Source: Bimuria novae-zelandiae CBS 107.79 | Taxonomy: Eukaryota; Ascomycota; Dothideomycetes; Pleosporales; Didymosphaeriaceae | Direction: 5' to 3' | Assembly: GCA_010015655.1 (NCBI GenBank) | Contig: ML976692.1 | Coordinates: 62,001-126,000, forward strand | DNA length: 64,000 nucleotides | Shown: positions 112-64,000 of the stretch, piece by piece | Numbering within the stretch: the first letter of the stretch is position 1 | How the letters are laid out: the number at the start of each line of letters is the position of its first letter | Position numbers and translations under genes: made by a program | The notes under the pieces: model-generated | Told to the model about the DNA's origin: nothing | The model's database searches: none | Seen by the model: only the letters and a program-made list of their open reading frames with translations

Positions 112-1784
112 GTTATAAGTCTAGTTTATACCTACTAAAGCTACTATTTATTTATAATTATTTATAATAATTCTATAATACCTATCGCATATAACTTATA
201 TAATAGCTATATATCTCTATAATAATAATAGAATCTAATCCCACTATAACACGTGTTAGAGTAATCCTTAATAAGTCTAAAGGTAAGTAGGCATAGGTTT
301 TTCTTCGAAAGAATATTACGTAGTAGCATAATCTATAGTAATATTATAACCTTAACGTCGCTATAGCTAACCTGCCTTTATTAATAGAGTCTATCGAGCC
401 TATAACACACTAATATAAAGTTATTAAAGTACTTAGTATAATATATACTAATATTAACTTTAATAATCCTAAATTTCGACGCTATTAATCTACGTATAAC
501 TAATATAAAAAGTAATATATCTGCTACATTAATTAGAAGCAGGCACTTTAAAATCTAAATATAAATATTAGTAAGATAATTACTAAGTACTATATTTCCT
601 TATTATATAATAAGGATACGCTGCACGCGTGGCTTATCTCTCTTAAAAAGTACTTTACGCTATTAATAGTAGTTTACTAACGTAACCTAATTAATAACTA
701 TAAGCGCTTATATGTCCTGCTAAAGTTACGTAATTTTAAAAACTAGCTATAATTATTAATTAGAGTTACTAATTAGTATACTAAATTTAATTTACTTAAT
801 ATTAAAAGTACACGCGTATAAGAAGATATTTTAATAATTATTAAAAATATTAACTTTAAATACGCTACTTCTAAGCTAATTAAGCTATTTAGGTATAAAA
901 ATAATAATATGTAAACAGCTATACTAAAGGACTACGTCGCTACCTATATAACGTATATTTAATAAGTCTAATCTAGTTTCTAGAAGCTTAATAGTATAGT
1001 GAGAAAACTTTAAGTGGCAAAGACGTAGAGTAATATTAAGGATAATAATAAGGCTATTATAAAAGGTTAAGCGCTAAGGAACGTATATTTCTATAATAAT
1101 AAATACTAGTATAGTTTATGCTACTACCTTAATAAGGACTTTTACTTATAATTAAGTAATTTTAAAGAAGATCCTACTATACGCTAGCGTATTAATTAAC
1201 CTTTATAAAATGAACATAGCCTACTTACGCGAATATAAAAGGTGGTTAATAAAATAAATAGGTAATTTTTAAAGACAATACTAGCTAGTATAACTATTTA
1301 ACCTAATAATAGATATCTACTAAGTAATAAAAGCTTAGCTGTTATAATAGGCTTATACAGCATAGTAAGTAAAGTCTTAGCCGCTATAGCTAATAACTAT
1401 ACTATATACCTATTAAATAAGTTAACTATTATTATTATTAATAACTATACTATAGCACTCTAACACTAATAGATTCTTGATCTATATTCTAACACTTATA
1501 TTATTAATATAACTAATTTAATAGGCTAGGAGCAAGAGCGCGTTAATAGTACTAGTATAATTATTAAAATAGGTAAGTACTACTATAAAATTAAGTCCTA
1601 AGGCAAGATAACTCTTATAATTAATATACTAATATGTATAATACGAATATTAATTACTTATATTACTTTAGTACCTAGCTTTAGTACCTAGCTTTATTAT
1701 AAGTGTTATTAGACTTAGACGCTATCGCGATAATAGTATCTACTTTAACTTAGGTTAAGATACGCTATATAATAAATATGTATC

Positions 1785-2205
1785 GGCGCTGGTCACCCAA
1801 AGGATCTGTTTAGGCGTTTCTACTCAGAGGCATATGGGAGTGAGTGGACAAGAATGTAGCCAAGAATGTATTAAGTGCCAATAGGCCTGGTACGAAAGGG
1901 TACTGAAAAGGTACTAAACTATATATAATAAATAAGGAAACTATATATCTAAGTACTTAGTAAATATTATTTTCGAGAGCTAAATGCTAAAGAGCGGAAA
2001 ATTTTATCTAATAAACCAAAAGGCTAGTCTAATAAAGAACCCTAGTAGATGGGAGGTGCAATGGGTCTAATAAGGGTCTAATATAAATTAGTATTAGAAA
2101 AACAATCTTAAAGACTAAAGCCAATCCGAATCGGATCGGTGTCGGGAAAACAGGTTAAATCGTGGACTTTGTAAGTTCGCAACTGGATGGATGCATTATA
2201 AAATA
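1785..2205. other. Weakly mutated 420-bp island inside copia
   Basis: Base composition changes abruptly: the flanks are very TA-rich, while this stretch keeps CpA and TpG and reads like unmutated DNA near both ends. It interrupts the copia frame between the protease and integrase region. I could not find convincing terminal repeats or a target-site duplication. It may be a short insertion below the length that RIP recognises, such as a solo LTR or MITE. Confidence 0.4.
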
Positions 2206-4930: not shown

Positions 4931-5102
4931 TGTGGCGCATAGTCACAACGATCAGAGAGCTTAAAAACAAAGTCTATTAAGGAGAGAAAGCTTTATAATA
5001 ACTAGCTATTTATAAGTTTAGGGGATCGCGTACTTAGCTACTTAGCTACTTAGCTTAACTTTAGCTAGCGTAAAAAGCTTTAGTAAAGTGCCTTTTATAA
5101 TA
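4931..5102 (-). repeat. LTR (172 bp) of the gag-only element, left copy
   Basis: Pairs with 6579-6750 at equal length. It contains a short tandem run of CTTAGCTA units at about 5030-5055. It is preceded by the AAAGT duplication. Confidence 0.85.
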
Positions 5103-5639
5103 TACCCTCTAGCTTATAAAATATATTAAGATAAGATAAATAGTAACTTAAAATATAAAAGGTAGTAAACTTGTACGTAAAGCTTAAAAAGTATCTAGCT
5201 TAGATTTTTAGCTTGCTAGGTAATTAGTTTAAGTAGCTAGTTTATATATATAGTTCTAGAAAAAAGGTAAAGAAGGAAAAAAGTAACATACTTTTATTAT
5301 AAAGCTTTAATAAATATTTAAAGGTAATTATTTACTTATAACGTGACCCGCACGAGTACCTATATATATAAATAAAAAAATAGGTAGTTATAAAATTATA
5401 GCGCCTAGCTAGTAAAAACTTACTTACTTATAGGCTTACTATAATTTATACTTTAATATTCTTTAAAAAGACTAGAGGAGGGTTTACTACCTACTTTTTA
5501 TATTTAAGTTTAGTTAATAACACCTTCTACTAATTCTTTTAAATTTACCTTTTAATTTTACTAATCTCCTTACTTATAGGCTTATTATAAAGCTTATAAA
5601 AAGCTTCTCCCTAGAGCGCGTACTAAAGGCGGTTACACT

Positions 5640-6480
5640 TTATAGGCTTCTATTAATACCAGCTATTTGCTCTACATAGGCACTTGTAGCTAGTATTAGG
5701 AGTGCGCCCTCTAAGCGTAGCGTACATGCCTGTGTGCTCAGTTGTTTAGCCGAGCTGCGCGAGCCAGCGAGCGTACCCTTCTAGAGATAGAGTTGCTACT
5801 GCACCTGGTCGCGATAGGTTATTAAGCTCTCTTTAAGCCCACTTATAGTTATATCGTAATGCTAAGCGTAGAAAATCCTTTATTAGTAGCGTACCCTTTA
5901 TCTTTAGGAGATCTAGGAGTATAGCGTTAGCGTGTGCGCGGTTCCATTCGGATAGCCATTTAGTTATGTCTGTTGTTCTGCTACTCTGTGGGCGTAGGGT
6001 GACCTCTCTATATATATGTTATACCTGCTCCTTCTAATTATAATCGCTTAGATAGAAATAATTTTTAAGTTTTTTAATTAGCGCTTATAGCGTCTACTAC
6101 TTATTTAATTATAGTATTATAAGCTTTAGCCTTTATAAATTAACGATAGTATAGACCTAGTATTAGAGTATCTAAAGCTTTATTATAAGCTAATTATAAA
6201 TAGTAGACTCTAGCTTATAGCGCTTAAGCTATTATATATAAGACTTGCCCTTAGTATTTATATTTAGTAGCTCTAAAGCCTAGTTATATATATTTATCTA
6301 CTTAGAAACTATAAAATTAATATAATTTTATATTTCTTAAGTCTTTACGTGGTACCTAAGCTACGCGTACTAAAGTAAAAATAAATTATAATTTATAAAT
6401 TAATTATTTACTAAGAGCTTTATAGTAGTTATTATATAGTTTAGCTTTATTATAGGTTATAAGCGTCGAGACGTAAGCGT
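5640..6480 (-). pseudogene. gag-like ORF remnant of the 1.82-kb LTR element
   Basis: Read on the minus strand, one frame gives a gag-like stretch with a W-L-x-E-W core near 5940-5960 followed by a helix-rich block. Near 5665-5690 a C-x-C...W-Y segment resembles a degraded zinc knuckle. Stops are TAG/TAA. No pol follows. The assignment to gag rests on pattern only and is moderate. Confidence 0.45.
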
Positions 6481-6578
6481 AAAAATAATAAAAAGTAAAA
6501 AATAGTTTATTACTATAATTATTAGCTAGTATAGAGAAAGTATATTATAAAGCGTTATAAAGGTACTAGGCTTATAAC

Positions 6579-6750
6579 TATAGTGCATAGTTATAATAAT
6601 TAAGAAGTTTAAAAATAAAGTCTATTAAGGAGACGACGCTCTATAATAACTAGCTATTTATAGGTTTAGGGGATCGCGTGCTTGGCTGCTTGGCTACTTG
6701 GCTCAACCCTAGCTAGCGCAGAAAGCTCTAGCAAGGTGCCTTTTACAACA
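6579..6750 (-). repeat. LTR (172 bp) of the gag-only element, right copy
   Basis: Equal in length to the left copy, with transitions as the main differences. It ends TTTTACAACA and is followed by AAAGT. The first half is RIP-mutated and the second half is nearly original sequence. Confidence 0.85.
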
Positions 6751-7372
6751 AAAGTTATTTTTAATAATTAAAACTATTATAATCCTCCAATTTTTTGCGT
6801 ATTAAACACGTTATATATAGATAATTAAAAACCCTGCTAAAACTTATAAGGATAATATTTCTTCTTTTATAGTATAATTATTAATTAGAAGGTAACCATT
6901 AAGCGCACTATTACTAAATTTATTATTAAATTAAAATTACTTTTAATCTCTTTTACTAACTTATAGATAACAGAATAGCTTTACGTTTTTAATAGTATTT
7001 TATTTAACTTAGGCATAACGCCTACGATCTACTATAATAATTAATAAATAATAAGAATTATTAATAAAGACCTCAATTAACTATATATAAAGGTTTAATA
7101 TATTAATATCTATTAAATGTAGACCTAATAAGAGGTAGAGGCTTAGTAACTTATTATTAAATAGGTTCCTATAGATAAGAGAGCTACTAACAAGCTTACT
7201 AAAGTCCTCTTAAAGGCTAAATATTAAAAGTTTATTTAATAGCTATATTTTATTAATATCGCGTAACGCCTCTGGGGAAGTATTAATAACAATAATAATA
7301 ATTTTGTGTATCTAGTTGCCTAATTAAGCAAGATTTCAGCTTCACCTCTTAATTAACATAAAGTTGAGGGGG

Positions 7373-7511
7373 TGTGTGACAGTTTAGTATAGAAGCTTAG
7401 GGCACCCGCGTACGTGCGGCCCGTGCACGTGATCCACACAGTATATAGCTCCATAGAGTAACTTCTTAATCAAAACAACGATTGCCTCAACACTCTTTTT
7501 TCGACGTTACA
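7373..7511 (+). repeat. 3' LTR of the copia element
   Basis: About 139 bp, beginning TGTG directly after a polypurine tract (7362-7372) and ending ..TTACA. It is less RIP-mutated than the left copy. The exact first base could be 7373 or 7375, since both give a TG start. Confidence 0.75.
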
Positions 7512-8059
7512 TATAGGAACCTAGTGCAAGACAGCAACATAATGTAGCTATTATACGCAGGAGCACGACACCAGGGATTACCTGTCGAAATCTAAACAGT
7601 ACATAACAAAGAAATGCGCGCTCTGCCAAGAAGCGCACGAAGTATAGAGCCGCCAGTGCCTAGAGAGAAAGGCCAAAACCGCCAAGATAAAGATCGCATA
7701 CGACACTCAACCCTGCTGCCACCCCGTACCAGGCCCAACTAAAGGAAACACCGCAGGAGGCATGCCAGAAGCTCGCTAAAGGATAAGGACGAACTAACCT
7801 ACAGTAACCTAGGATACTCCAAATGGCAGGACCCGCTCCCTGTCGAGGAGGGGACAGAAGAGGACTAACACTAGAAACGTGATTAACCTAAGAGATAAGG
7901 AGAATTAACAAGTAGGAAAGAAAAATAGCTAAAAACCTTAAAAGATAATTATCCCCTTAAGGCAGGTATTTAAAGTTCTCGAAAATAATATATAATAGAT
8001 ATAGTGGCATAATTAATAGATAGACGTTAACGAGAACGATAAATTATAAATTATAAACT

Positions 8060-8795
8060 TATAATAAGTATACTATAGTACAACGTTTCCAAATTAAAAG
8101 ACATGGTAATAGCGTCACTACTACGCGACTCTAAAACCCACGAATACAACATCCTTACTATACAAGAACTGTGGAGGAACCCGTTCATGGCAACTGCACA
8201 CTATCTAGCTAAAAACGTGTAGCCACGTGACTTACGTCAGAGGTGGTCTGTGTAGAAGATTCCATCTAGGTGCACAGACCACTGACTTTAACATAAAGCT
8301 CTCGCCCGCTCCTTTCTTCCTCGATAGACTCTTCACTCCACTCTTTTCGCAGATAGCAATACAGCTTGTTTTCCTTATATGCCTGTCCGCCCACAAAACG
8401 TCTTCGACCTGTACTGCCCAGAGGGGACTAAGGAAGGACCGACCAGAGTGTATTTCTTCGTAAACAGACGGATAGACAGCAGCAAGATCCACTTTAAGGA
8501 ACACACACGGGACTTATACTCTATTACACTCATGCTAGAAGGAAATTAGCAACTTAGCATCTACAACGCGTATAATCCTCTACAGTACACGGCCCAGCAG
8601 AGCGTGCTATCGCATATCCGAGCATCACTAAACAAACATAACAATAACAAGCTTATATTACTTGGCGACTTCAACCTACACCATCCGCTATGGGGAGGCC
8701 CGGACGTGCAGACCATAGAAGCAGAAGCAGGGCAACTAATCACCATTATAAAGAATACGCCCTATACGCCACCCTCGCACCTAGCACGATAATAT
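8060..8795 (+). pseudogene. LINE endonuclease domain (start of ORF2)
   Basis: The frame from about 8090 shows NILTIQE (about 8150), the endonuclease E-containing block, and LLGDFNLHHPLWGG (about 8655-8697), the GDFN motif of LINE apurinic endonucleases. Short open stretches survive here because this part is less mutated than its surroundings. The frame shifts and stops, so it is inactive. Confidence 0.8.
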
Positions 8796-9947
8796 GTAAA
8801 AAGAGATAGTTACAAAGCTCTATTAACCTATTTTTCGTAATAGTAGGACTAGTTAAACGGGTTATAAAGAGCGAGGTAGATAAGGAACTTAACTATAATT
8901 TAGACTACCTACTAATAAGTATAATTCTTGACGTAGCAGTCCTAGGAGCGAATGTAATACCTAAGAAAAACTAGAAAAAACTCGATAAAGAGGCATACTC
9001 TAAAACACTAGAAGGAGCCCTTCTACCTTTTTAAAGACTAGCGATAAAGACTGCATTAGACTAATATGTTAAAGAAGTAATTATAGTAATCTAAAAAGAG
9101 AAAGTGGTCCCTTAGACACGCGTATTAAGCAAAAGTAAGGAAAGGTAAAATAAAAAGTGTAAAGAGGTCTTAGCTAAGACTAAGAGACTTAACCTGTCCC
9201 ACCAGTACCGTGCCCGTGCACCCAACGCGCGCCGTCGGCCAACGCGCGGAATTGGCCCTAGTTATTACTAGCAAACTTGGGGCCGTAGAGTTACATATAA
9301 TAGTTGTTATCACTAGATTTTCTGGTAGAGTAATCTATAGGCCTATGCGATAGAATTTGCTACCAAAATTTACGTAGTTAAAGTATTTTATAGCTATAGC
9401 TATTTACTATAGGTGCAGGTGCTAAGCACGGCTTATAAGTAACACTACTATTTTACATAGTTATAGAACCACGTTTCTACCTCTTTTTAACCCCTTATTA
9501 CTGTAAGGCCTTGCGCTTACGTTTTTATATAGTTTAAGATCTATTTTAAAAGTCGCGCTACTATTTCTTACGTGCTCTCTTAGCTTTGCGCGTATTAATA
9601 GCTTAGCGCTCTTCTACACGCTTCTTCTCTTACTCTTCCTTCTCCCTTACTACTATCTAGCGCTTCTCTTCTGTAATTTACTTCTTATACGCTATAATAG
9701 TAGCCTTTAACTTTCTTACCTCTTCTTTTTAGAACTCCTCCTTCTCTGCCTTACGCTTTACTAACCTCATCCGTGTGCGCGCTTCTCGAAAGGAGCGAGG
9801 AGTCTACATCATGTACGGTCCCTAGTACTCGTAGTGTTGTAGCAAAGCTAGAGGCTTGCCTTGCTTTTCTCGCTTCCTCTTAGTAGTAAGAGCGTCTATT
9901 AGACCTTCATTTTCGCTCCTTATAAGGGTGTTTTGGATAGCCATATA

Positions 9948-11737
9948 AGCTAGCGCATATAGTCACCGCCCACATAGGGTTGCCGCCCACCCCACCAAAA
10001 CACGACACCTGCACAAAACACGCGATATCTCTCCACAACGCTTATCAAAATGGACCCCCGCGAAGAATCTATACAATTAGCTATCAGCGATTTTAATGCT
10101 GGCGTTTATCTAAGCCTACGCGCTGTGGCAAAAGCCTACAATATCCCTCAATCTACCCTACGTGGCCAGCTAGGTGGCGCGACAAACAGCGCAGTCTGCC
10201 ATCAAAATCAGCAGCAATTAACTCCTCTACAGGAGGACTTCCTAGTAGAGTGGATCCTCGAAGAAGACGCGCGCGCCTGCCCTCCCTCCCACGCTCGCGC
10301 CTGAGAAATGGCCAATCGAATCCTGCGTATAAATGGCGACAACTAGCCTGTAGGCAAGCTCTGGATCTCACACTTTATCCGCCGACAGCCACGCATCGCC
10401 TCAGTAGTCGGCAGAAAGCTAGAGGCTCAGAGAGCTGATGCAGCGACTCCAGAGCAGGTGCGTGCCTTCCTAGAGCTCTATGAGCAGACTAGACGGCGGC
10501 TTAACGTACGGGCGGAGAATACCTATAATATGGACGAGACCGGCGTTGCCCTAGGGGTATGTACGAACACTAGAGTACTCTCTAGTAGTTAGAAAAAGAA
10601 GGCTTATATTCGCTCTCCAGAGAATCGCGAGTAGGTCTCTATAATTAAGTCTGTATTAGCAATAGGGCGGAAACTACGCTGCGCAGTCATCTTTAAGGGC
10701 CAGAGCCTACAAACAACCTGGTTCCCCTCGTCCTACGTACCTGACTGGATCTATACAACCTCAGAGAACGGATGGACGTTAAATGCGATAGGTGTTGAGT
10801 GGCTACAGCGCATATTTCTACCTAAGACAGCTATAGGTAATGGCCAGTACCGACTCCTTATTTTTAACGGCTATAGCAGCTACATTAATATTAAGTTTCT
10901 CTAGCTTTATAAATAGTATTAAGTTAAACTCTTATACCTACCTGCGCATACCTCGCATGTCTTATAGCTACTAGATCTTGCTCCTTTCTTTGTTATTAAG
11001 TCTAGTTACCGACGCTAGATCCAAGAGCTCGCATCGCTTAATAATGCCGCGCCTGTTAAGAAGGAGCGCTTTATTGCCTGCTACTATTAAGCTAGGGAGG
11101 AAGGCTTTACAAAGCGTGTAATTTAAGCTAGCTGGCAGGCTGCTGGTATCTGCCCGCTCAACATTAATCAGGTACTCAGCTCGTCGCAGCTCTCTCAGAG
11201 GCCTACTACGCCTACGCATTAGCAGCAGCCTCAGCAGCAGCCTCAGAGCTTCTTCTCTACTCCTCAAGGCCCTAGAGATCTATACTTGGCTCAGCGCGAG
11301 GTGCAGAGCTGCGAGAACCTAGGTTGCAAGACAAGACTTCTCCTGCAAAAAGCAGGTAAGGCGCTAGCAGTTGCAAATACTCGAGCTATAGGGCTTAAAT
11401 TAGAGAAAAGACGCCTTAAATAGCAGCTAGAGACTACTAGCTCTTAGCGTCCTCGAAAGCGCGTTCGAGTAGATCTAAATTAACGCTTTGCAGAGGTAGA
11501 GACTATTAGGGAGGCAATGCGCGCAGCTAAGGCCTTAGTAGCTTAGCAAAGTAGATATACTATAGAGGGAGCTGCAGAGACAGTAGTAGTAGCTATAGCA
11601 GCAGCTACTCTACAGTCTATGTGTATTACATGGCAATTATAATAGGCGTTGTTAAGAAATCGCGTGTTTTGTGCAGGTGTCGCGTTTTGGTGGGGTGGGC
11701 GGCAACCCTATGTGGGCGGTGACTATATGCGCTAGCT
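9948..11737 (+). mobile_element. pogo/Fot1 transposon C (1.79 kb), the least decayed copy
   Basis: Inverted repeats of roughly 75 bp start AGCTAGCGCATATAGTCACC at each end and are flanked by TA (9946-9947 and 11738-11739). The interior carries a transposase on the + strand that is open over long stretches. Its base composition is near normal, so it has seen little RIP. Confidence 0.85.
10050..11643 (+). pseudogene. pogo/Fot1 transposase of element C
   Basis: The ATG at 10050 opens MDPREESIQLAISDF with a Psq helix-turn-helix (AVAKAYNIPQSTLRG, residues about 27-41). The same frame continues past a TGA at about 10303 (formerly CGA). The first DDE block is intact, YNMDETG (10524-10544), but the second reads FNGYSS (about 10863-10880) where DGH is expected. 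About ten stops in all. The C-terminal part is Gln-rich. Inactive, but close to the ancestral protein. Confidence 0.8.
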
Positions 11738-11758
11738 TAGTGGAGCGATTGCCGAATA

Positions 11759-13689
11759 AGTCGGGTGGGGTAGTTTCCGACACCGGGTAGTTTTCGACAC
11801 CCCGCAAAATTTCGCCGCTGCCACCACTTGGGTTGCGAATATGCTCACAACTTTATTAAATAAATTTGTAAAAAAAAAAAAAAAAAAAAAATAGTATTTA
11901 AAGCATTTAATCACTTTCTTTATCTATGCTTAAATCACGATTAAGATATCGTTGTGTTCGTCGTTGTTCTCGCGCTAAACGTCGAACTAATAGCTGCTCC
12001 GCTTCCTCTTTAGAGCTACTTTCCTCCTCTACGATAATGACCTTTTGCAATGCATTTCTTAATTTGCGAATACGTTAAGAGGGTACCTAATTAGCCTGCG
12101 AGAGAACTTCTACAAGACTTACGAACTATTTATTTAGATTAATTATAACTTTATAGCGTTTTAGTAGATTTACTTAATTAATCTGCTTACGCAAGGAAGC
12201 AATCTCATAATTTTTTATAATAACCTCTATTAAGGTATAGTTAAATACCTTAGTAGTAAGCTAAACACATCGTCGTGTAGTTAGTAAGAAGCTCTTTTTA
12301 GAAAATAGCTTTACAACATCGCTGCCACGTTTTGGCGTCCTGATATCCTTAGTAGAAGAGGGTAGTGTTAACGGCCGTTCGCGCACCACCACCCAGCGAG
12401 AACCTAAGGGCTTCCTCACGTTCTTAGGGTACAGCCCTGTTGCTTTCTACCTAGATCGGACACACTGCTCTCGAAGGCCAATTTTACGCGCTTCTGTATA
12501 AAATTCGAGAAACTTGGCCTTCCTAAGCTTTGTTACATCTGTCTCAGCCCCATACTCGCCGACGAAGCGCCGATACGCCACCTTTAGGCTGGAGAAACAA
12601 CCAAGATCTAAAGGCTAGAGTATATGTGAAGTATGGGCAGGTATAAAGAGCAAATGCACATTATTTATATAATATATAGTTATAAATTTATCTAAGGTAT
12701 AACTGCCATGGCCGTTAACAATAAGCAATTATGTCTTAGACAGATTATTAGGCTTAGTTTAGGGCAAGAACACCTTCTCTAGCCACTTAATAGCAATATT
12801 ATTACTTATCTACCTATTTTACGAGAAAGTAATATACTAGTAAAGATATTAAGTTAAAAACTCTTTCTTAAACCACTGCTCCTAGATGCTCTTAGCCTTA
12901 AAGATAACTAAAGGTTTAAGAACGACGCCGAGCGCAGAGATACACTCTACTATAGAGGTCTACGTACAGGCATTTATTATTTTAACTAGTATAGCATTAG
13001 GGTTCTCTTGCGAGGAGCCTATAATAAGCCTATTAACTCCCTAGCCCTCTATAATACCGCCCTCGTCGGCGTTGTACCTGTGTCGGGGGGGAATCCAGGT
13101 CACGGTCTCGTACAGGTTAAATATTTGCCTAATATTTTTAGGAGTGGCCGCATTTATGCGTTCCTAGCTAGTCTAGTAGCCTAACTTTGACTTAATAGCT
13201 AGGCGGCGTCTTATAAATTAACTAGTCTACTCTTTCCCTAGGTTCTTATAGTTACCTTTTTACTTAAAGATAACTATTACGATAGCTTGCACTTGCGCGT
13301 AGGTTAGCGCGTAATTAAAGACTTCTTAACGTAGAATCTAGCGCTCTAGATACTCTTCTTAAATAACTAAAAGTTACTATGCACTATTATAGGCATGCAG
13401 GTAGGATTAGGCACTATTAAAGTGGCCGCGAAGAGTGTTGCGTGGTACCCTATATTAAGTAGTAGTAGTGGCTAAAGCGACCCTAGATTTAAGGTCTATA
13501 AGTGCGTTCTGGACATCTCCTTCTATATATCTAGCTATTCGAAGTCAGAGAATACGATGCAAAAGGAAAAATTAAAATTAATAAAGAATTAAGGTTATAA
13601 GAATTATTTTTAGTTAGCGTGCATGGTGGGTGAGCGCGATTGCAGGGCTGTCGGAAACTACTTAGTATTAGAAACTACCCTACCTAACT
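11759..13689 (-). mobile_element. pogo-type DNA transposon D (1.93 kb)
   Basis: The left end begins AGTCGGGTGGGGTAGTTTCC. The right end, read on the other strand, is the same sequence with RIP-type changes, and an internal repeat of the GTAGTTT unit is present at both ends. TA flanks both sides (11757-11758 and 13690-13691). It holds a run of about 22 A (11870-11891). Confidence 0.8.
11900..13560 (-). pseudogene. pogo transposase of element D
   Basis: The minus-strand frame shows a helix-turn-helix N-terminus (about 13380-13540) and the DDE core near 13070, reading YNADEGG followed by a V-x-R/G-L-I-I-G-S-S block and a PLVIFK segment (about 12900-12920), which match fungal pogo transposases. 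Stops are TAG/TAA; inactive. Confidence 0.75.
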
Positions 13690-15259
13690 TAATTAATGTA
13701 TCCTTCTCTATTGCACCCCTTAACGCACGCCTTGCTACTTGATCTAAAACCCTCTACTATTCTCCTTTATAGATAGTAGCGTTAGAGTCGCTATCTTTTG
13801 TAGTCTTAGAGTCGCTGTCTATAAACTTATCTAGTATAACGTTAGGGTTAAATAGGCTCACGCCCACTGCCTTAAAGGAGCTAAGTATATTTAATTTAGT
13901 AAAGCTAGCCACCTAGGCATCCTAGAATAGCGAGAAGAAGTTAGGCTTCTTTACTAGTACTAGGCCTTTGTGCTTAAAGAAGCGCTCTCCTAGCTTCTTT
14001 AAGTATGCTATACTAAGAGGCTTAAACATTACTATATTAAGCGGCTGAAGCGTGTGCGTGCTGTAAGGTAGATAGATACTTATAAGAATTTTATACTAAT
14101 AGTAATACTCTAAAAACTCTTTAGTTAGGTAACTCTTATAGCTATCCACGAGCAATAGGCGGTACTTTCTTTAAGCTTTAGATATAGTAAAGCGCTAAAA
14201 TACCTGTTATAGCTAAGTAAGGCCTAGGCCGTCGTTGCTCCAGCTACTAGGTAATACTCTAAAGAAGGCTATATGTTCTCCCACCTTTATATCCTCCACC
14301 CAGGTGCTCTGAATATTCTAAGATTTAGCCAGATATATAAGGCCTAGAGGAAGAGCAGATCTATCCGCGCATATACATGCTATAAGGCTTACCTACTTAT
14401 AATTACTATCTTATAGTATCTACCTAAAAGGTTTCTTCTTAAATTAACGCTTGCTAAAGATTCTCTTCTATCTACTAATAGCTCTAATTATAAAGCCTTT
14501 CTTATCTATATTATATATATGCGCAGGCTCTATCTTATAAAACTTAATTTTATCGCATAGCGTGTCGTAGTATAGCTTATACTTATTACTAGAGTTAGCG
14601 ATATAGCGTTACTAGTCTATAAATATAGTAAATTAAGACGTAAGCTTATTATTGTAATAATCTAGAAAGCGCGATACCTAGCTCTTAGAGACCTAATACC
14701 TAGCGATATTTAAGGCGAAATCTTAAACTATCTCTTTTATAAGTAGGAGGTGTTCTTTTATAAGCTTGTCTATATACTTTATAAGCTCTACCTCCTCCTA
14801 TAGGCTAAGGTTCTAACGCGTTACTATATCCTCTTAGTAGGAACGCGCACTAAACTTTACTTTACGCGTTAAAGTTAAGTAAATAACGCTATACTTTTAA
14901 GCTATTTTTATCTATAGGATTTTCTCTCCTAGAGGTGTACTTTTTACTTCTATAACTACTTCGTTAATGCCTGTCATTGTTGTTGTGCTGTGTTAGGATA
15001 AAAAAGTGTTATGTGGATGGTGTTCCGCGCGTTGGCTGACGGCGCGCGTTGGGTGCACGGGCACGGTAACCTGCGCACACCAGTAACCTGCGCACCCCAC
15101 CAAAACTAACACAGCTTTCTGCACGATAGCTTAACAACGTAATAGTTAAATTTTCTATAAATAGATTTATATAATAGCTATAATCTCTGTCTACACTAAG
15201 TCCTTGTGTGGCCTTGCTCATGGCAGTTGCTGCATGTAGGTGGTGCTTGTGATCGTCCT

Positions 15260-16797
15260 GCACGGTCCTCCTGCTCTACCTGCTAGCGCACCCTTTTAGC
15301 CTCTGCAGCCAGCCTTTGACCTTCCTTAGCCTGTAGAGCGCCTCTAGAGGCAATATACTATCTGCGCCTGTCCTGCCTTTATCTATAGCAATAGTTAGCT
15401 ACTTATAGCCTTTTATTCTCCTCTACTAAGATCGTTACTAAATTTATTATAAGCTAATAGCCTTTAACAAGCTGCGCGATAGCTTAGTTTATAAGGCTCT
15501 AAAACTATTACTATAGATAAGCACGTATAAGCCTAGCCTGCTGCTCGACCTGAGTAGTAGTGTGAGGCGTCCCAGCTGTCCATGCTGTCTCAGCGACTGT
15601 CTGTGGTGGTGACGGTGTCCTGACTACAGTCAGGCATGAGAGGACCCGATCTGGACAAGGAGACACCAGCCCTGCCGCTTGAAAGCCAGCCTTGATGTTC
15701 TGCTCTGTGAAGACAACCCTATGTATACATGGGTAGATTGACAGGAACTCTTCCTTGTCTACATGATAGACACCTTGTCTAGCCAGCTCAGTCACCTCAT
15801 GTCCGTACGCTGTCTTGAGAGGTGAGAAACAGCTAATATCTAGAGGCTATAAGAGGTGGCTCGTGTAGGCAGGCATATAGAGACTAATAATCCTATATAT
15901 CTTATAGTACTAATTAAACTTAGGGGTAGCGTAGCTACTATAATTATTTAAAATAAGTAACTACTAGGTGCCTACTATATAAAACTTTATATACTAATTA
16001 AAGTGCTTTAGCTAGGCAAACCTTAAGTTATTTATTATTTAGCTATTATTACTAATAGCTAGTACCTAGCTAGTAGGTAGGTTAGTATACTAGCTAGTCT
16101 AGTAGAGCTTGCTAAGTAGAATAATAAAAAGTAGTATAAACTACTTAGCTACACAGATAGCTTTAATTATTATAATATAGTCTTAATTACTAGGCTATAG
16201 ATACATAGCCCTCCCTATAGTATTTAAGCTAGTCACTACTTTAGACGTAGAGGCGACCCCTATTATAAAGCCTTTCTTATTAAAATTATTAATATCTGTG
16301 TCTAGTATACCGTATGTCTGTCGTGTCTTCTCCACAAGCTTGTACTAAGTAGAAATCTTAATAGGATCCTTATAGAGCGCACGCTGGCTATAGAAGCTTT
16401 TAAACTATTTAGTTTATAGTTTTAGCTAAGTCTTAATAAAGCGCGATACCTAGTTCTTACCTATAAGCTATAAAGTAGGGATTTAGCTACGTATAGTAAG
16501 TAGATAGTTAGCTATCTTATATATGTTAATAATATAAGGTAGAAATCTACGTTAGTTAAGGTCTAGTATCTAGTCTACTAGAGCCTGCTCCTCTGTAGGG
16601 TGTAGCTTTTGATTTGGTGATCTTGTCTCGTGTTTTGGCTAGACACCTCGAAGGCACGTCTGTAGTGTTAATTCTGGTATATTGTAGGTTGCTGCTAGCG
16701 CGCGTATAGACTTTGCTAATTTATTCTGATAGGATGCGATTGCAAGACTTATTCTACCTTCTTGCGAGGTCTGTATAGGCTGCTGCCGTTGTGGCAT
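15260..16797 (-). pseudogene. pogo/Fot1 transposase of element B
   Basis: The ATG at 16797 (minus) opens a frame with a Psq-type helix-turn-helix (SLAIASYQ...LAATYNIPE, about 16640-16760) and a CENP-B-like second helix-turn-helix. The C-terminal part stays open at 15511-15795 and holds the N-I-K-A-G-F-Q-A-A-G-L block common at the end of fungal pogo transposases. The middle, with the DDE residues, is RIP-mutated with stops. Confidence 0.7.
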
Positions 16798-16863
16798 GGC
16801 TGATTGTGTAGGACGCGTTGCGCGATTTTGGTGGGGTGCGCAGCTTACTGGTGGGACACGTTA

Positions 16864-19700
16864 AGAGAATTTATAATTAGCTTAGTATAAAGGAGATATA
16901 GAAAGCGTACTAGTTAGTAAGAAACTATAAAGCTAGGATTATTAAGAAGGCGCTGCGGAATAAGCATAAAAAATAAGTAAAAAAGGTAGTTAAGTTACTA
17001 AAAGGACTATAAAAGATAGCTAAATAGGCAAGAATAAGAGAGTTACAGTTTATAAAAGCTATACTAATAATCTAATACTTAAAAACTTAACTCGAAATTA
17101 TAGAGCTAAGTAATAAAATAAAAATATTTAAAGACATCTTTTTCCTTGCGCCCCTAAAAGTAAATCTAAAAGGCGTATAAAACGTAAAGTATAGTAGCTA
17201 AATTAAACTACTACTAATAATAATAAAAAATAGAAAACTCTATTTGCATAGCTTCCTCTTTTAAAGGCCTTAGACTTAATAAGATTATAAATAAAGCCCT
17301 TTAAGTAAAGAGACCTTAGCTTATAGCGTATATACTAAGAATCTTTAATTAAAGTATAAAGCTAGGCTATTACCTAGCCTATTTTTATAGGTTGCTTACA
17401 GCAGTGCTTTATAAACTAAGGAAAGATAACTATATAAAACTAAAAGTATACTAGCTAGTCGCGCTACTTATTACTATAGGTAAGATAATAAATACGATAA
17501 TCTCCTAGTGGCTAAACTACTTAGTAGAGATATACTAGCTACTTCTACTAACCTATATAGGAGGAAGAAAGAAACGATCCATAGAGCATACGCTCTACGC
17601 CGTGGCGAAGAAGATTTACAAAGCATGGAACTAGAAGAGAACCCATGTGGCTAGCCTCTTATTGCTTAACGTATCGGGCACTTTTAATAATGTATCCCAT
17701 GCGCGTCTACTACACAACCTGCAAAAAAGGGAGATTAATAAAAAGACTATCTAATAGATTATAAGTAGCCTTAGTAATAGTTATACGCGTATTAAGATTA
17801 ATAGAATTATATCTACGTAGTACGCAATAAGCATAAATATATTTTAAAACTCTTTATTATTACCTATCCTCTACCTGTTCTATAATGCTAACCTTATAGA
17901 TATATATAATTAAGAAGTAAACGTTCTTCTAATAGGCTACATTAACGACATAGTAGTCCTAATATGGGCAAAAACGACAGAGGAGATATGCAACATCTTA
18001 GGCAGAACTCTATAAAAGACATAGTAGTGGGCAAACACGCACGTATCCGTCTTCGCTCTAGACAGGTTCTAGCTTACACACTTTATAAGGACACGCGAGA
18101 AGATTAATACTACTTATTTAATTTAAATTATTTAGAGTAAGATTAAACTAAAGCTAACTTATAAGTATTTAGGGCTAATAATAGACTCTAAGCTTACATA
18201 AAAAGTATACTTTAAAGAAATTAGGTAAAAGGTAATAAAAATAGTACACGCGCTAAGTAACTTTAGAAATTTAAAATAAAGCGCTAGCTTTATTAATCTT
18301 AAAAAAATATATAAAGGTACTATAGTGCCCTAGATAATGTATGCCTGCTTAATATAGATAAATAAGAATAGAAAGACACATACCTATACTAAAAAGGCAC
18401 TTAATATTCTACAAAGTATCTAGGCGAGAGTAGTACGAATTATCTATAGGGCGTATAAAGCTATATTAAGAGCTATACTAGATATTAAAGTCTTCCTCTT
18501 CCCTATTAAGTAATAAATATGGAAACATAATGCTAACATAATTACTTAACTTCTGTCTAGCAGACCTATCGTAAACACCGTGGGTTTCCAGCCCACGGAT
18601 GCTGCCTAAATGACAGAACGCAAGAAGCATACAGGCTCCTGGCAGAGGATCTATAGAGAGATAAGAGATAAGTGGGGAAAGGACCTTACAACGCAGGAAC
18701 CAATTCCCCTATTCATCACACCCCCCCTGCAACAAGGACTAAAGACCTACATAGACAACAATTACGAGACAGCGAGGAAGCGACACGATAGGGAGACTGC
18801 GACGGATTAAGACCTCAGCATCTACACAGACGGAAGCGGAATCGACGACAGAATCGGTGCGGCTACAGTGTGCCCATACACACAGTAGACGCGCAGCGCC
18901 TATCTTGGATTATCCACGACGTCCACAGTATATGCAGCAGAGCTGTATGGAATCAGCCTGGCACTACAGATAGCACAAGAGTACGCAGATCGGAACGGAA
19001 GCAGACGCAACGTCGCCATCTACACAGACAACCAGGCCGCCATATGGTCTGTCACTAAGGCCAAAGGACGGACGGGAGCCTACATTTTAGAGGAGATCGC
19101 CTGCCAAATCCAGGACCTCTAGGACTAAGGACGTCTGGTACGAATTTGTTGGGTACTAGCCTACGAAGGAATCCCGGGCAACAAAGCTGTAGATATAGCT
19201 GTAAAAGAAGCTACAGGATAGAGAGAAAATGGCAAAAGAGCGCTGGCCGTAGACAAGTCTCTAAAGCTCTTTCCCCTTAAGACCACGCTAATAAGGAGAT
19301 ATAAACAGCAAGTAGAGATAGCGTAGAGTGCAAAGTGGCGGAAAGAGATAAAAGGCCAAGCTATATTTAGGAACACATTAGCTCTAACAAAAAGAATACT
19401 TAAGCTATATAAAGGCCTTAAAAAGGGGGATAGCGCTCTCCTCGTATAGCTAAGAACTAAAAAGATTAGACTAAAAGACTTTCTCTTTAGCTATAAAGTA
19501 CTAGATATAACTAGCTTACGATGTAACTATAGAGCCTTAAGGTAAATAGTAGCCTACGTTCTACTCTACTATAGGACGCACAACGACCTTTAGAACTAAA
19601 TATTTAGTAACCTCCTAAGATAATATAACCTCTAGACTATCCTTAATAAGCTATAACTAGCTACTAAAGCTATTAAATTTATAGAGTAGATATAGATTCT
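16864..19700 (+). pseudogene. LINE reverse transcriptase and RNase H remnant (ORF2, second part)
   Basis: RT motif A reads SLLLLNVSGTFNNVSHARLL (about 17640-17710), where the aspartate of the canonical LD is N. The YxDD box reads YIND (17938-17949). RNase H follows, with TDGSG (about 18815-18845), YAAELYG (about 18935) and TDNQAA (19023-19040), all catalytic positions that can be checked by eye. A C-x-C..H-x3-type zinc block is at about 19520-19590. TAA/TAG stops are frequent. Confidence 0.8.
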
Positions 19701-20031
19701 TAGGTAAGTTAGGATCACAGACGCGTAGATAAAGCCGAGCGCTAGGGGGAGACTGTAGGTATGTGGACGCGATACACGAGGTGTAGAACCTTTTTAAAGC
19801 CTAGAAAATAGTGTGCATTAGTATTAGAGCTATTATCTAAATAGGCTAGTAAGCATATTTAGATAGTAGGTGCTAGGAGGAGCTAGTCCTGTTTTGCAGG
19901 ATAAAGTAGGGCGGGATAGATTAGCAATAATCTAGGACGCGTTAGTTGTTCGCCAAGCCCACCTAACCGGGCATAGCTGCGGGGAAATCGCGGCTGGAAC
20001 CGAGCAGGAATCAATCAATCAATCAATCAAT

Positions 20032-58147: not shown

Positions 58148-58930
58148 TCAATTGCCTCCAAAAGCGTTGTGCATCGTTCCCTCGTTCTGCCCTAGCACCA
58201 TTCCATTGTTCGTCCCTGTCCCAGAATGATTCAGCGTATTGTGGTGCGTACTATGATGCGTGTTATGATGCGTAGACCCTGATGATAAACTCTCAAGCTT
58301 CTCAAATAGTCTGTTGTCGAAAATCTTGATTGTTTCCATGATTGATTCGGAAAGGTTTTGGGCCTTCTGGAAGATTTGGGAAGCCTCTTCTGCGCATAGT
58401 CTTGCCTCATTTTGACGAGTTAAATCGGATGAAAAACAGGAGCGCAAACTGTTAACGACGCCTTCCATCGTTTCCAGAAATTTCATAGTTTCGTCTCTTT
58501 TGTACAGCACCCACTTGGTTTTCTCTGCGAAGCTGGCTTTGCACTTCTTGTTCTGGCGGCCGAGCGTCAAATGCTTTATCGGAGCCTTTTTAGCCTCAAA
58601 CCCCGAAGAGGCAGCAGTTTTCTTATCCTTCGGAAGTCCGCTCGCATCAGTAGTGGCACTTTCAAATAGCTTGACAATATGTTTCAAAGTTTTTTCCGCG
58701 AGGTCTCGGTCCTCGTGGGGCGTAATGAGCTCGTCCCACTCGACTGAGTCAAGTCCAACGCTCTTGCCCCAGCGTGAGAGTTTCAAGCCGATAAGGTTTA
58801 ATCGAAGTTCGCAAGTCTCGTAGTCTTCACCGTAGCCGCGAGCAACACGGACGTATCGAAAACATTCCAAAGCTTGGTTGAAGAAGTCTATGGCGCCGAA
58901 CGCGAGACCGACTGTTTCTGCCGTTTTCAG
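58148..58930 (-). CDS. HeLo-domain protein with C-terminal amyloid-like motif (5' exon not resolved)
   Basis: The frame reads LKTAETVGLAFGAIDFFNQA then LECFRYVRVARGYGEDYETC and LKLSRWGKSVGL, a HeLo (prion-inhibition and propagation) domain as in HET-S. It covers most of residues 1-205 here. There is no ATG in frame at the 5' side, so a first exon lies upstream of an acceptor CAG (58931-58933); one candidate starts near 59069 on the minus strand but is not secure. The C-terminus has a His/Thr/Asn-rich linker (THHNTHHSTHHN) and then NGMVLGQNEG (58178-58207). In this family the HeLo domain is a membrane-killing effector unleashed when the C-terminal motif folds as amyloid. It is divergent from the NLR gene, the arrangement of HET-S and NWD2. 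HeLo assignment is firm; the amyloid role is inferred. Confidence 0.85.
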   Translation of the reverse strand: MKTAETVGLAFGAIDFFNQALECFRYVRVARGYGEDYETCELRLNLIGLKLSRWGKSVGLDSVEWDELITPHEDRDLAEKTLKHIVKLFESATTDASGLPKDKKTAASSGFEAKKAPIKHLTLGRQNKKCKASFAEKTKWVLYKRDETMKFLETMEGVVNSLRSCFSSDLTRQNEARLCAEEASQIFQKAQNLSESIMETIKIFDNRLFEKLESLSSGSTHHNTHHSTHHNTLNHSGTGTNNGMVLGQNEGTMHNAFGGN

Positions 58931-59307
58931 CTGATGAAACTATAATCTGCTTAGCAGAAAAGATTGAGAAATGAATACTGGGAGTTATAACTCAATGAAA
59001 TGTAGTTCTCGACCGGTGTTTTAATACCTCTGGTGAGCAAACATCGTCCCCCATTAACTTGCTGTCGCTTCCCATCTGATCATCGAGCCAATTTGTCAGT
59101 ATGGTCACACGGTAATGCATGTGTACCGTCGCAAGCAGATGAAAACACCCAAAATTGCTGCTTTTACCGGCTTCGTCACTGCACATGCCTAGAATGAAAC
59201 AAACTCAACTGGCTTAAATTGCATCCGTATCGGCAAGATCGCTGCATTCACTCCACTGTGAAATACATGATAGTTGTCTCGTCAATTTAGTTGAAGAGCG
59301 TCATAAT
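58931..59307. promoter_or_regulatory. Shared divergent upstream region of HeLo and NLR genes
   Basis: About 380 bp separate the resolved HeLo exon from the NLR ATG. It must hold the NLR promoter and the missing HeLo first exon and promoter. A short spacer with divergent starts suggests joint expression. I name no specific site. Confidence 0.45.
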
Positions 59308-62199
59308 ATGTGGAGTATCGCCAACATCTCAACGTTGGCTAACCATGGCCTGGTCGTTGGACAGAATCGTGGATGCATCAATTACACGAACGTTCAACCA
59401 GACCAGGAAAAAGAGAAGCAAAAGGTGCTAGAGGAGAAAATACAGAAATGTTGCGATGCCATTCTCATCACCGATCCTGCGGTCGATCGTGAAATCACCA
59501 AGAGCTTGAAAGGTGAGCGTGTCGCTGGGACTTGCGAGTGGATCAGAAAGAATTCCACTTTCAAGCAATGTATTCTACCAGACTCTAAGACGCACTCACT
59601 ATGGTTGCGCGGCGGGCCAGGAATGGTAAAGACGATATTGTCGACATTTCTGACCGAAGACCTCGAACGAAGCTTTGTAGACCAGGATAAGCTACAAACT
59701 TTCTTCTTTTGCGATCACCAAGATTGTAATCGATCCTCGGCCGTCGGCATCCTTCGCGGCATAATATGGCAGATCATCAAGGCCAAGCCGTCGCTGCATG
59801 TACATGTCCTATATTGCGCCAACAATGATAAGCAAACGAAGCACTCTCTCAACTCGCGAGAAGCACTGTGGCTGATGTTCGAACGGATCCTTCGCGACGA
59901 AGAGCTTGGTGAGGTGATTTGCATCATATATGGCTTAGCCGAGTGCGACCAGGACTCTATAACATGGTTAGCCGGGAAAATCGGGCACGCAGTGCATGAG
60001 ATTCAGCCAGAATGCAAACACCCTCCCAAGTTCTTCATTGCTAGTCGTCCAGAAGTCGCGGGTCTACAGATGCTAAAGAAAATGGACCTAGCCGGTGAGG
60101 TATCGATTATCCACAACAACGTGAAAATATTCATCACCGCGAAGATTCAGAGATTGAATCTCATTCTTGGTTTCGATGATGAGCTACGGGAGAGAGTGAA
60201 AACCACTTCTCTTGAACGCAGTGAAGGCTCTTTCCTGTGGCTCGGATGCATTATCGCGGAATTAGAGCTCAAACCTACTTGCACCGAAGTTCAAGAAGCG
60301 TTGAACAAATTTCCTAAACAGCTAGATGCTCTTTACAACAGGTTTTTAAAGCAGATTAGCCACGACCATAAAGCGGATTGTCTTCGCATATTTCAATGGG
60401 TGACCAAGGCCAGGACTCCGCTTAGTCTCGCGGAGCTAGGAGAGGCGCTGCAATCGGAGCCACACCTGGGGCTCTCTAAGGAGCGATCTGTGAGAGACAG
60501 GATAGTCTGGTGTAAGTCCCTGGTCACAGTCCAAGAGAATATAGACGATTCTATACTCTCTACTGTGAGCCTCATTCACTATTCGTTTGAACAACACCTC
60601 CTTTCTCTCGTCAATAGCACGGACATATCACTACAATACTTTCGTATCATAGAAGATGAGCTGCATCTTCTCATGGCGAGACACTGCTTGGACTACTTCA
60701 AAAAGAGTCTCGGCGAGAAATTGTTCTGGGACTGTCATGACCCTGTCGACAATAGACTGCGGCCTCTGATGAAATACGCAATACTGTACTGGGGTCAACA
60801 CGCACGGTGTGCCGGCAGTCAAGCCCTCCAACTTCTCGAGTCTCATTATGAGGACATCAAAGAGGGACCACTAATATGTAAATACTGGGCTTGGTCATAC
60901 AGAAAAGCAGAAGACTCAACAACAGATATGAGAACGCTTGTGGAACGAGAGAACTCTGTGCCACACCTCATCGTCGCAGCTAAATTCGGGATCTCGCCTT
61001 GGATCCAAAAACACTTAGCTGAATTGTACGACAAGGCTGATTCTCGAAGATTTGTTCTGGATCTGAAGGAGCACGGCGGGAGGTATACTGCTTTGCACTA
61101 TGCTTGCCAAGCAGGTCATCAAGATACGGTTGAGCTTATTCTTAACTTGGGAGCCATGCTGGATGATCTTTCCGTGTTTATTGTGGTTGAAGAAGGGCAA
61201 TTTGAGTGTCTGAAAACGTCGCTTGCTCACGGCGATAATCCTAACGCTAAAAGTTTTGGTCTTTTTGCCCCGGCCGCTCTGCATGAAGCAACCGCAGGGT
61301 CGATTGACGTGGTGAACCTACTCCTCGATGCTGGAGCGAACGCAAATTTTAAAGTGGGGGGCCTTGTCCCGCCACTTCGAGTTGCGTTAGAGATGGGATC
61401 GCTGGAAGTTGTTGAAGCTCTCTTCCCGCGCATGGTCTTCAATCAACACGAGCATGAATTGGAGTACTACATATGTCTTGCAATTGAAGCACAACGTCTC
61501 GAAATCATCCGTTATCTATGCATACAGAAAAGGCGACTCGAGCCACACGCTATTCGTCAATCATTGTTTCTGCGCGAGGCTTTCAAATCTCGCTGTGACA
61601 CAACCATAGCAACAGTTCTAGACTGTCTTCAGATTGATATCGAGACCCGATTTGGATGTCAAAAAGATTGCCCGTCGAAAACCCACTCGGCTGTTGGCTA
61701 TGCTTTGCAAATGCATACCCCACAGATTTGGAGCGTCCTCGTTGATAGAGGGGCGATCTTGAAAGACGAGCATGGCAATGACGCGACAACCCAAGCATTT
61801 ATGTGTGCTGCAGTACATGGATGCACGAGGCTACTCAATCAGATCTTAGAAAAAGGGTTCAGCATCGACACAATACAAGGCCCACTTGGCCATACAGCAC
61901 TCCACTTAGCTGTCGAGGAGAAGTGTTACGTCTCCGCTGGATTCCTAGTCGCTAGAAAAGCTAACGTTAACTGCAAACTTGAGAAAGAACGTGAGGGCGA
62001 AATACCATTGATGACCGCTGCGAGTAATGGGGATGCAGACATGGTTCAATTGTTATTGGATAATGGCGCGAATCCATCCCTCAGAGATCTTCACGGTCGG
62101 ACCGCACTAAGGCATGCTATTAACAAGGGGCACAATTCCATGGTTGAAATTTGGAGGCAGCACGTTAGCAAACATGTACAGAAGCAAGCGAGTTCGTAA
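59308..62199 (+). CDS. NACHT-ankyrin NLR (STAND) protein, 963 aa
   Basis: One uninterrupted ORF. Residues 1-30 contain HGLVVGQNRG (13-22), like the motif at the end of the divergent HeLo protein. A NACHT domain follows: the P-loop region reads GGPGMVKT (102-109), then a FFFCDHQDCNR block (about 132), IIYGLAECD (206-214) at Walker B, FIASRPE near 244 and a winged-helix-like segment with TPLSLAELGEAL near 370. The C-terminus (about 589-955) has ankyrin repeats (TALHYACQAGHQDTVELIL and others), the ligand-sensing part in this class. Fungal NLRs with this layout activate a partner effector through N-terminal amyloid templating. Compared with the family, V107, Y208 and A211 replace the expected G, D and D, so nucleotide binding may be altered. 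The start is the first ATG and keeps the motif. Confidence 0.9.
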   Translation: MWSIANISTLANHGLVVGQNRGCINYTNVQPDQEKEKQKVLEEKIQKCCDAILITDPAVDREITKSLKGERVAGTCEWIRKNSTFKQCILPDSKTHSLWLRGGPGMVKTILSTFLTEDLERSFVDQDKLQTFFFCDHQDCNRSSAVGILRGIIWQIIKAKPSLHVHVLYCANNDKQTKHSLNSREALWLMFERILRDEELGEVICIIYGLAECDQDSITWLAGKIGHAVHEIQPECKHPPKFFIASRPEVAGLQMLKKMDLAGEVSIIHNNVKIFITAKIQRLNLILGFDDELRERVKTTSLERSEGSFLWLGCIIAELELKPTCTEVQEALNKFPKQLDALYNRFLKQISHDHKADCLRIFQWVTKARTPLSLAELGEALQSEPHLGLSKERSVRDRIVWCKSLVTVQENIDDSILSTVSLIHYSFEQHLLSLVNSTDISLQYFRIIEDELHLLMARHCLDYFKKSLGEKLFWDCHDPVDNRLRPLMKYAILYWGQHARCAGSQALQLLESHYEDIKEGPLICKYWAWSYRKAEDSTTDMRTLVERENSVPHLIVAAKFGISPWIQKHLAELYDKADSRRFVLDLKEHGGRYTALHYACQAGHQDTVELILNLGAMLDDLSVFIVVEEGQFECLKTSLAHGDNPNAKSFGLFAPAALHEATAGSIDVVNLLLDAGANANFKVGGLVPPLRVALEMGSLEVVEALFPRMVFNQHEHELEYYICLAIEAQRLEIIRYLCIQKRRLEPHAIRQSLFLREAFKSRCDTTIATVLDCLQIDIETRFGCQKDCPSKTHSAVGYALQMHTPQIWSVLVDRGAILKDEHGNDATTQAFMCAAVHGCTRLLNQILEKGFSIDTIQGPLGHTALHLAVEEKCYVSAGFLVARKANVNCKLEKEREGEIPLMTAASNGDADMVQLLLDNGANPSLRDLHGRTALRHAINKGHNSMVEIWRQHVSKHVQKQASS

Positions 62200-62864: not shown

Positions 62865-64000
62865 ATGGCACGCACAACGAGCTTCTCTTGGGATACCTTA
62901 GGCCCCTTCATAGTCTGGCAGTTCCTCATCCCCTACGTAATAATCCTTTTCACCTTCACCCTCCCTCAACACTAACAAGTACCAAAGGCAGCAGCATGGA
63001 CGCAATCCTTCCTCTACTCCATCTTCATCCGCGCCGGCTCGTCCAAACCGCAACCCGGCACCCCGCGCTTCCTAAAACACCGGCGACAAATATTCATGGC
63101 GCTCTACCTCGCGTACTTCCTCTTCACCATCTACGAAGCCGACTTCCACCTTCAGCGCTCCCGCACGGCCTACACCTCCCTCGGCGTCCCACACAACGTC
63201 ACGGAGTCGGTGCTAAACTCCCGCTTCCGCCGACTAACCGTAAAATACCACCCTGATAAATTCTCCCCTAAAGACCGCGACTGGGCAAACGACTTCTACG
63301 TGCACCTCAAGCACGCGCGGGACATCCTGCTCGACCCGGCCAAGCGCTGGGCGTACGATCGATTTGGGGAAGATGGGCTCCGGCAATGCGTAAAGTGCGT
63401 GACGGTCGGCGAGTACACGACCAACGCGCTGGTGGTGTCCATGGGCACCTACGGCGCACTCACGCTCTTCCTACTTGCCGCGAACGCGCTGGGGTTCTTC
63501 AGAGACGGCGCATACTGGCGGTACCTTGCTATCCTCGCGGTCGCCGCGTACGATGTGCGCACCGCCATGCGGCCGGACCACCCACCCTTCCTCACGCAGT
63601 GGCTAAACCCGCTCGTTACATCCCTCAACATACGACCCGCGTACCTCCCGTTCCAGGCGACGGCGATCGTGAAGAAGGTGGCGATATCGGGCGCGCAGTT
63701 TCTGGGATTGATAATCCCGCTGTATAGAGATGAGGTGGGGGCAAAGGTGCAGCCGGTGGATGATAGCGAGGAGAGCAGGCATAAGCAGGTGGATCGGCTG
63801 CAGGCGGTGGTGGAAGCCGGGAATGCGGATGTGACGAGGATATTGGAGCTGGAGAGCACGATTTTTAAGGAGAATGAGAGGGCGAAGGGCGAGCTGAGGG
63901 AGGCGATGAAGAAGTTTATGGTGAATAATGTGGTGCACCAGGAGCCGGAGGTAAGGAATGCGATTGGGCAGCGGATAGGGAGGAGGAGGACTGGGGCGCC
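62865..64000 (+). CDS. Membrane-associated J-domain (DnaJ) protein, 3' end outside window
   Basis: Exon 1 is 62865-62936 (MARTTSFSWDTLGPFIVWQF...) and exon 2 starts at 62988; the 51-nt intron (GTAATA, branch CTAAC, AAG) removes an in-frame TAA. The acceptor could be 3 or 6 nt further on with the frame kept. The N-terminus is hydrophobic (about 12-50, membrane segments), then the J domain SRTAYTSLGVP...KYHPDKF with HPD at residues 112-114 and RWAYDRFGEDGL. Further hydrophobic segments and a charged coiled coil follow (about 300-360). The type resembles ER-membrane J proteins that help Hsp70 at the membrane. It is still open at the window end. Confidence 0.85.

Follow-up and report, generated by a model that had tools for sequence, protein, structure and literature searches.

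Within a stretch of 64,000 nucleotides (hereafter the window) from Bimuria novae-zelandiae CBS 107.79, a soil fungus and pleosporalean by its taxonomic record, a minus-strand gene for a HeLo-domain protein adjoins a divergent plus-strand gene for a NACHT-ankyrin NOD-like receptor (NLR), and the two proteins carry matching motifs, the former close to its C-terminus and the latter close to its N-terminus. These features point to a receptor/effector module of two genes, laid out like HET-S/NWD2, a reading to which a probability of about 0.65 can be given. The pair lies on contig C37 of a genome of 77.4 Mb in 191 contigs. Both sequences were found at the coordinates given for them in the original prediction, and the coordinates, the Pfam matches and the alignment score bear out its starting point, namely that a HeLo gene and an NLR gene lie side by side in divergent orientation and that their products have matching motifs at the ends.

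How would such a module work? What we infer, by analogy with the described systems, is a chain of clustering, amyloid folding, templating and membrane attack. The ankyrin end of the NLR would sense something, and the receptor molecules would cluster. The N-terminal motif of the receptor would fold into a beta-rich nucleus, this nucleus would template the matching C-terminal motif of the HeLo protein, and the HeLo helices, once freed, would attack the plasma membrane of the fungus itself.

The Two Genes

The HeLo protein matches Pfam family PF14479 with 90.9 bits (cut-off 23.2; E 1.2e-25), the domain covering residues 24-209 of our 276-residue model (58352..58909, minus strand). It also matches three solved sequences of HET-S/HET-s (the "small s protein") with E values of 0.001 or less; the best match, with E 1.1e-19, spans residues 39-260 of the public HeLo model. 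Raising the limit to E up to 1 adds five more structure sequences, all weak and unrelated. On these matches, the effector is a homologue of HET-S. Its main exon, read from the frame, occupies 58148..58930 on the minus strand (260 codons plus the stop codon at 58148-58150), and the protein matches BU23DRAFT_600126 of Bimuria novae-zelandiae CBS 107.79 along its full length with 99% identity. A linker rich in Ser, Thr, His, Asn and Gly (58211..58285, minus strand, read from the frame) leads from the HeLo domain to the tail motif. An AlphaFold2 model of this protein, built on an alignment of two rows, had a pLDDT (predicted local distance difference test) of 34.7 and was set aside as meaningless.

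The NLR gene is an open frame of 963 codons without intron or stop (59308..62199, plus strand). Pfam places a NACHT-type domain, NPHP3_N (PF24883), at residues 74-247 (59527..60048, E 4.1e-28), and ankyrin repeats further on (Ank_2, E 1.8e-31), the best of four stretches spanning residues 865-948 (61900..62151), both on the plus strand. The protein thus has the NACHT-type domain and the C-terminal repeats of an NLR of the STAND class (signal transduction ATPases with numerous domains). Between the two genes, as modeled here, lies an intergenic stretch (59076..59307, from the gene coordinates) that may serve as a promoter region common to both. Next downstream of the NLR, at window positions 63096-63998, is a gene that by eye, with no search run, appears J-domain-like (YHPDKF) and has hydrophobic stretches.

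The Shared Terminal Motif

The effector tail reads GTGTNNGMVLGQNEGTMHNAFGGN and the start of the NLR reads MWSIANISTLANHGLVVGQNRGCINYTNV. Alignment places the effector-side motif NNGMVLGQNEGTMHN at 58166..58210 on the minus strand and the receptor-side motif NHGLVVGQNRGCINY at 59341..59385 on the plus strand (residues 12-26), the latter also giving a weak match to PF17046. The original prediction had the HeLo protein end in the motif and the NLR begin with it. The motif is present in both, but nine residues come after NEG in the former, and in the latter it starts at residue 12 rather than at the very N-terminus. Its position matches the usual placement of other amyloid signaling motifs (PMC9815663), and like motifs at the effector C-terminus and the receptor N-terminus, in adjacent genes, are what the HET-S/NWD2 type displays.

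How close is the likeness, and how rare? In the core GxVxGQNxG, six of nine residues are identical between the two proteins. The best ungapped match between tail and NLR N-terminus extends over 17 residues with 8 identities and a BLOSUM62 score of 45, which none of 2000 double shuffles reached (maximum 43). When the HeLo tail was compared with 9060 tiles translated from the window and from the fetched loci, three reached a score of 45: two were the tail itself and the third was the cognate NLR N-terminus. As a DNA pattern, the strict core is found at two places in the 77.4-Mb genome, which are these two genes, and at none in a reversed control, about 0.19-0.29 places being expected from base composition; because the pattern was derived from these same genes, the scan measures rarity elsewhere and is no independent discovery. 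With the Q freed, the core occurs at eight places, against three in the control. To the eye, and with no family search made, none of the six additional places looks like an NLR N-terminus or a HeLo C-terminus. Among them, on inspection, are a ribosomal-protein-L36-like frame, one whose start resembles a signal peptide and one that overlaps a membrane-protein-like frame, while another (L043) is close to the C-terminus of a 242-residue frame without assigned identity. Judged by these comparisons, the motif is specific to this pair and stands at the expected ends.

A chance likeness of two short Gly/Asn-rich ends, in proteins of unrelated function, would suit the facts that a single pair is concerned, that it was chosen by eye in the original prediction, and that none of 20 NLR relatives carries the motif. 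It is, nevertheless, most improbable in view of the shuffles, of the tiles, where nothing besides the tail itself matched other than the cognate NLR, and of the fall of both strict-core places in adjacent genes, at the expected end of each protein. Could the ends instead be ordinary short docking motifs that bind each other without amyloid folding? The pairing is argued from likeness of sequence, but docking pairs are usually complementary rather than alike, and where NLR/HeLo pairs with like ends have been described, they work by amyloid templating (PMC5485727, PMC9815663); this alternative appears very unlikely.

Affinities of the Motif

Another question is whether the motif belongs to a known family. 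The original prediction had suggested a variant of the HET-s-related or RHIM-like families, to be checked with HET-s, sigma and PP profiles of both termini. Membership in the HET-s-related family is not borne out. The HET-s profiles PF11558 and PF17108 gave no match to the terminal peptides (E up to 10, HMMER filters on), and a genome scan with PF17108 returned three weak places, none at this locus. The HET-s motif, or HET-s-related amyloid motif, generally occurs as two repeats in the tail of the effector (PMC4518210); the HeLo protein has a single copy of the core. The sigma profile PF17106 did not match the terminal peptides either under the same settings, and it found no candidate anywhere in the genome, which hence offers no positive control for it.

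Only PP profile PF17046 (the PP motif, called misnamed SesB in PMC12261475) gave a match, and a weak one: 13.1 bits against the 25-residue NLR peptide, with a cut-off of 23.2, at profile positions 14-28. It matched neither the 48-residue NLR peptide nor the HeLo tail, and its genome scan did not pick this locus. The alignment of the NLR to PF17046 and the best fit of the tail to the Bimuria PP motifs have one common register, N-x-G with a glycine every fourth residue, followed by a hydrophobic position. Both partners have V where PP has its central Q, with Q-N after the second glycine. Of the PP core (G-phi-Q-phi-G / NxGxQxGxN), the form G-phi-Q-x-G does not occur in the HeLo protein or, on inspection, in the NLR N-terminus. 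When a home-made PP matrix was used, the best fits were equalled by 1165 of 5000 tail shuffles and 1872 of 5000 shuffles of the NLR peptide, and are thus not significant; here, the NLR peptide fitted best in another register.

These data bear on the possibility that the motif is a diverged PP (RHIM-like) one, in which the spacing N-x-G-x3-G-x3-G-x-hydrophobic has been kept and the central Q replaced by V, so as to form a channel separate from that of the genome's canonical PP receptors. The common register of the two partners speaks for it, as does the occurrence of PP motifs in this genome. It is, however, rather unlikely: the resemblance is confined to the NLR 25-mer, below the cut-off, and shuffles do as well; the register shifts with the method for the NLR; the defining Q is missing, and the genome scan passed the locus over. 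What stands of the RHIM-like suggestion is this weak resemblance. Since it is not significant against shuffles, the motif is assigned here to no family.

By reading, two further patterns are lacking: FxGxGxQxxGxGxF of PUASM, which goes with a PNP_UDP effector (PMC9815663) where the present one is HeLo, and the GDQN pattern NxxxGxQYxxxGxGDQNxVSxxxxQxN. The motif fits none of the amyloid-motif profiles tried, and searches of the open-licence literature in PubMed Central, supplements excluded, brought up no report of it or of a GQN motif.

Points Weighing against the Module

Several findings weigh against the module as read here. The first concerns relatives, the search for which depended on shared exact words. 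For the HeLo protein, it gave the gene itself and one other, P0002, among 605 candidates, and the P0002 model has no tail. For the NLR, it gave one relative among 49 candidates with residues 1-110 and 20 among 5363 with residues 1-400. The shared motif is absent in all 20. The nearest three are only 30-39% identical, P0005 is modeled without a start Met, and a first exon may be missing from the nearest models, so that the absence counts against a conserved family without settling the matter. The motif is thus known from a single HeLo/NLR pair, and the effector has one copy of the core where HET-S has two.

The second concerns the nucleotide site, where the canonical Walker A and B residues of STAND NLRs are replaced. 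The P-loop reads GGPGMVKT (59611..59634, plus strand), with Val for the Gly before the Lys, and Walker B reads IIYGLAEC (59923..59946, plus strand), with Tyr and Ala for the two Asp. In an alignment of the window NLR with 20 database relatives and 14 of 29 other Bimuria NLR loci (those read from the N-terminal NACHT part), the Gly is kept in 34/34 relatives and the first Asp in 27/27 that align there, the remaining seven not reaching the Walker B site; several relatives (from Fusarium and Trichoderma) are near-duplicates, and these counts are therefore not independent. In NWD2, activity was abolished in each of four point mutants, which affect the P-loop, Walker B and sensor I (PMC4344463). 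Because the receptor is without residues whose equivalents inactivate NWD2 when mutated, the term "ligand-triggered" in the predicted "ligand-triggered cell-death module" is weakened, while the pair layout behind the remainder stands. With such a site, activation would have to do without the usual ATP switch, or is impaired. Non-canonical P-loops, with variation of GxxxxGKT/S, do recur among fungal NLRs (PMC4986451).

Repeat-induced point mutation (RIP) was considered as the cause of the Walker changes and ruled out: the pair sits in an unbiased island at 52-64 kb, where the composite RIP indices of all six 2-kb bins are negative, judged by the usual index thresholds. Elsewhere, window positions 1-20000 and 24001-52000 are AT-rich with a strong RIP-like dinucleotide bias.

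The third concerns the start of the HeLo gene, which is doubtful. Our model adds to the main exon an uncertain first exon (59028..59075, minus strand) and gives a product of 276 residues; the public model starts further upstream, has its splice acceptor 9 nt away and gives 294 residues. Homology was looked for and not found for the first exon of our model or for the upstream exon of the public one. The homology to HET-S and P0002 begins beside a Thr codon, ACG (58922..58924, minus strand), which aligns with the first Met of P0002; upstream of this codon, the unspliced frame contains no Met as far back as the preceding stop. The doubt bears on function because the N-terminal helix of HET-S is important in membrane targeting and attack (PMC12881547).

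Is this, then, a decaying or disarmed module, a once-working pair that has lost its nucleotide switch and its normal effector start? In such a case, killing may be lost while the amyloid part persists, as in HET-s, a natural killing-dead variant (PMC12881547). The loss of a Gly and an Asp kept in every relative compared argues for it, as do the ACG at what looks like the ancestral start and the importance of the N-terminal helix of HET-S for attack. Against it, the NLR has 963 stop-free codons, both genes have coding-like GC by codon position, and there is no RIP signal around them; in addition, the upstream exon of the public model supplies a start, and non-canonical P-loops are recurrent in fungal NLRs (PMC4986451). 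A decayed or rewired module fits the doubtful ligand/ATP step and the doubtful effector start. Genes that are still kept would be expected to show what is seen here, namely a long open frame, coding-like GC and no RIP. Disarming is a real possibility, on balance doubtful. To go further and propose a new motif family, N-x-G-phi-V-phi-G-Q-N-x-G-x-[IM]-[NH], linking an NLR to a HeLo killer and nucleated by a pseudo-NACHT amyloid receptor without the canonical nucleotide switch, would be to favor an unlikely reading.

Other HeLo, NACHT and PP Loci

The genome scan with PF14479 gave eight matches; the window gene is one of these, and two of the eight are neighbors at a single place. The other frames have 472-666 residues, save one piece of 71 residues, and some are kinase-like by reading; the genome pattern scan found the strict core in none of them. 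One HeLo gene, with a frame of 552 residues, lies about 2.2 kb from a same-strand NACHT match (C22:17263-20586, partly within L035).

A second divergent pair was observed at L056 (C25:774604-777894), with a HeLo-like PF17111 match (C25:776104-776394, minus strand) and a NACHT match (C25:777215-777616, plus strand). Both contain stops, which represent either introns or decay. Its effector tail EVQVSIDDVLVDGGSSAMVGVQVKSTS and receptor N-terminal segment QLSVNARNITASGGSQIFAGIQISGDS, picked by eye, align without gaps at a score of 43, reached by 0 of 2000 shuffles; neither segment matches a Pfam amyloid-motif profile.

PF17046 marks nine places in the genome at E up to 10, two of them over the cut-off, and five stand about 260 bases upstream of a same-strand NACHT match. 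Eight of the nine carry a multicopy PP-type N-terminal motif, FG..N[AR]GFQAG.I.G; by reading, seven have FGxxNAGFQAG and the eighth FGDANRGFQAG. They are found on contigs C65, C31, C9, C23, C12, C42, C145 and C123 (L027, L060-L064, L066 and L067). As for the NLR loci among the best matches to the window NACHT (L004-L013, L017 and L018), by reading they have, where the window NLR has its short motif, an N-terminal domain (GWTLQELLAP) that we take to be HET-like, no search having been run.

Comparison with Described Systems and Significance

The closest parallel is HET-S/NWD2 of Podospora anserina, with which the Bimuria pair shares a HET-S-homologous HeLo effector, an adjacent divergent NACHT NLR and like motifs at the same ends (layout in PMC3321046, according to which the adjacency of het-S and nwd2 is kept and their orientation varies). 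It differs in that its motif matches no HET-s profile tried and occurs once in the effector instead of twice, in its non-canonical P-loop and Walker B, and in an ankyrin end where NWD2 has WD repeats, although some NWD2 homologues do carry ankyrin ends (PMC4344463).

With HELLP/PNT1 and other PP pairs, the Bimuria pair has in common a single short motif with N-x-G and a glycine every fourth residue; unlike them, both of its partners lack the central Q and stay below the PF17046 cut-off. The effector is HeLo (PF14479), whereas HELLP is HeLo-like and PNT1 is a PP-NB-ARC-TPR protein (PMC12881547). The GDQN pair of Fusarium oxysporum Fo5176 is likewise a single NLR/effector pair with like ends outside the older families and a QN step (PMC12261475), but its pattern is not that of Bimuria and its effector is SesA. 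Finally, the receptor resembles the fungal NLRs with non-canonical P-loops (PMC4986451) and is set apart from them by a Walker B that is altered too and by having as its neighbor a HeLo gene whose product carries a like motif.

The diversity of such motifs is thought to keep signaling pathways separate. Only a few fungal amyloid-signaling families have been published: one data set of 2025 has five, to which is added the GDQN pair, also a precedent for accepting a motif known from a single pair (PMC12261475).

What can this locus offer? A pair with mutually matching ends and no match among the profiles tried offers a ready test, with two peptides, of the sequence that templating requires. If the module works despite the missing Walker residues, nucleation by NLRs would be separable from clustering driven by ATP; should it fail to work, it would be a natural case of the disarming of a death module.

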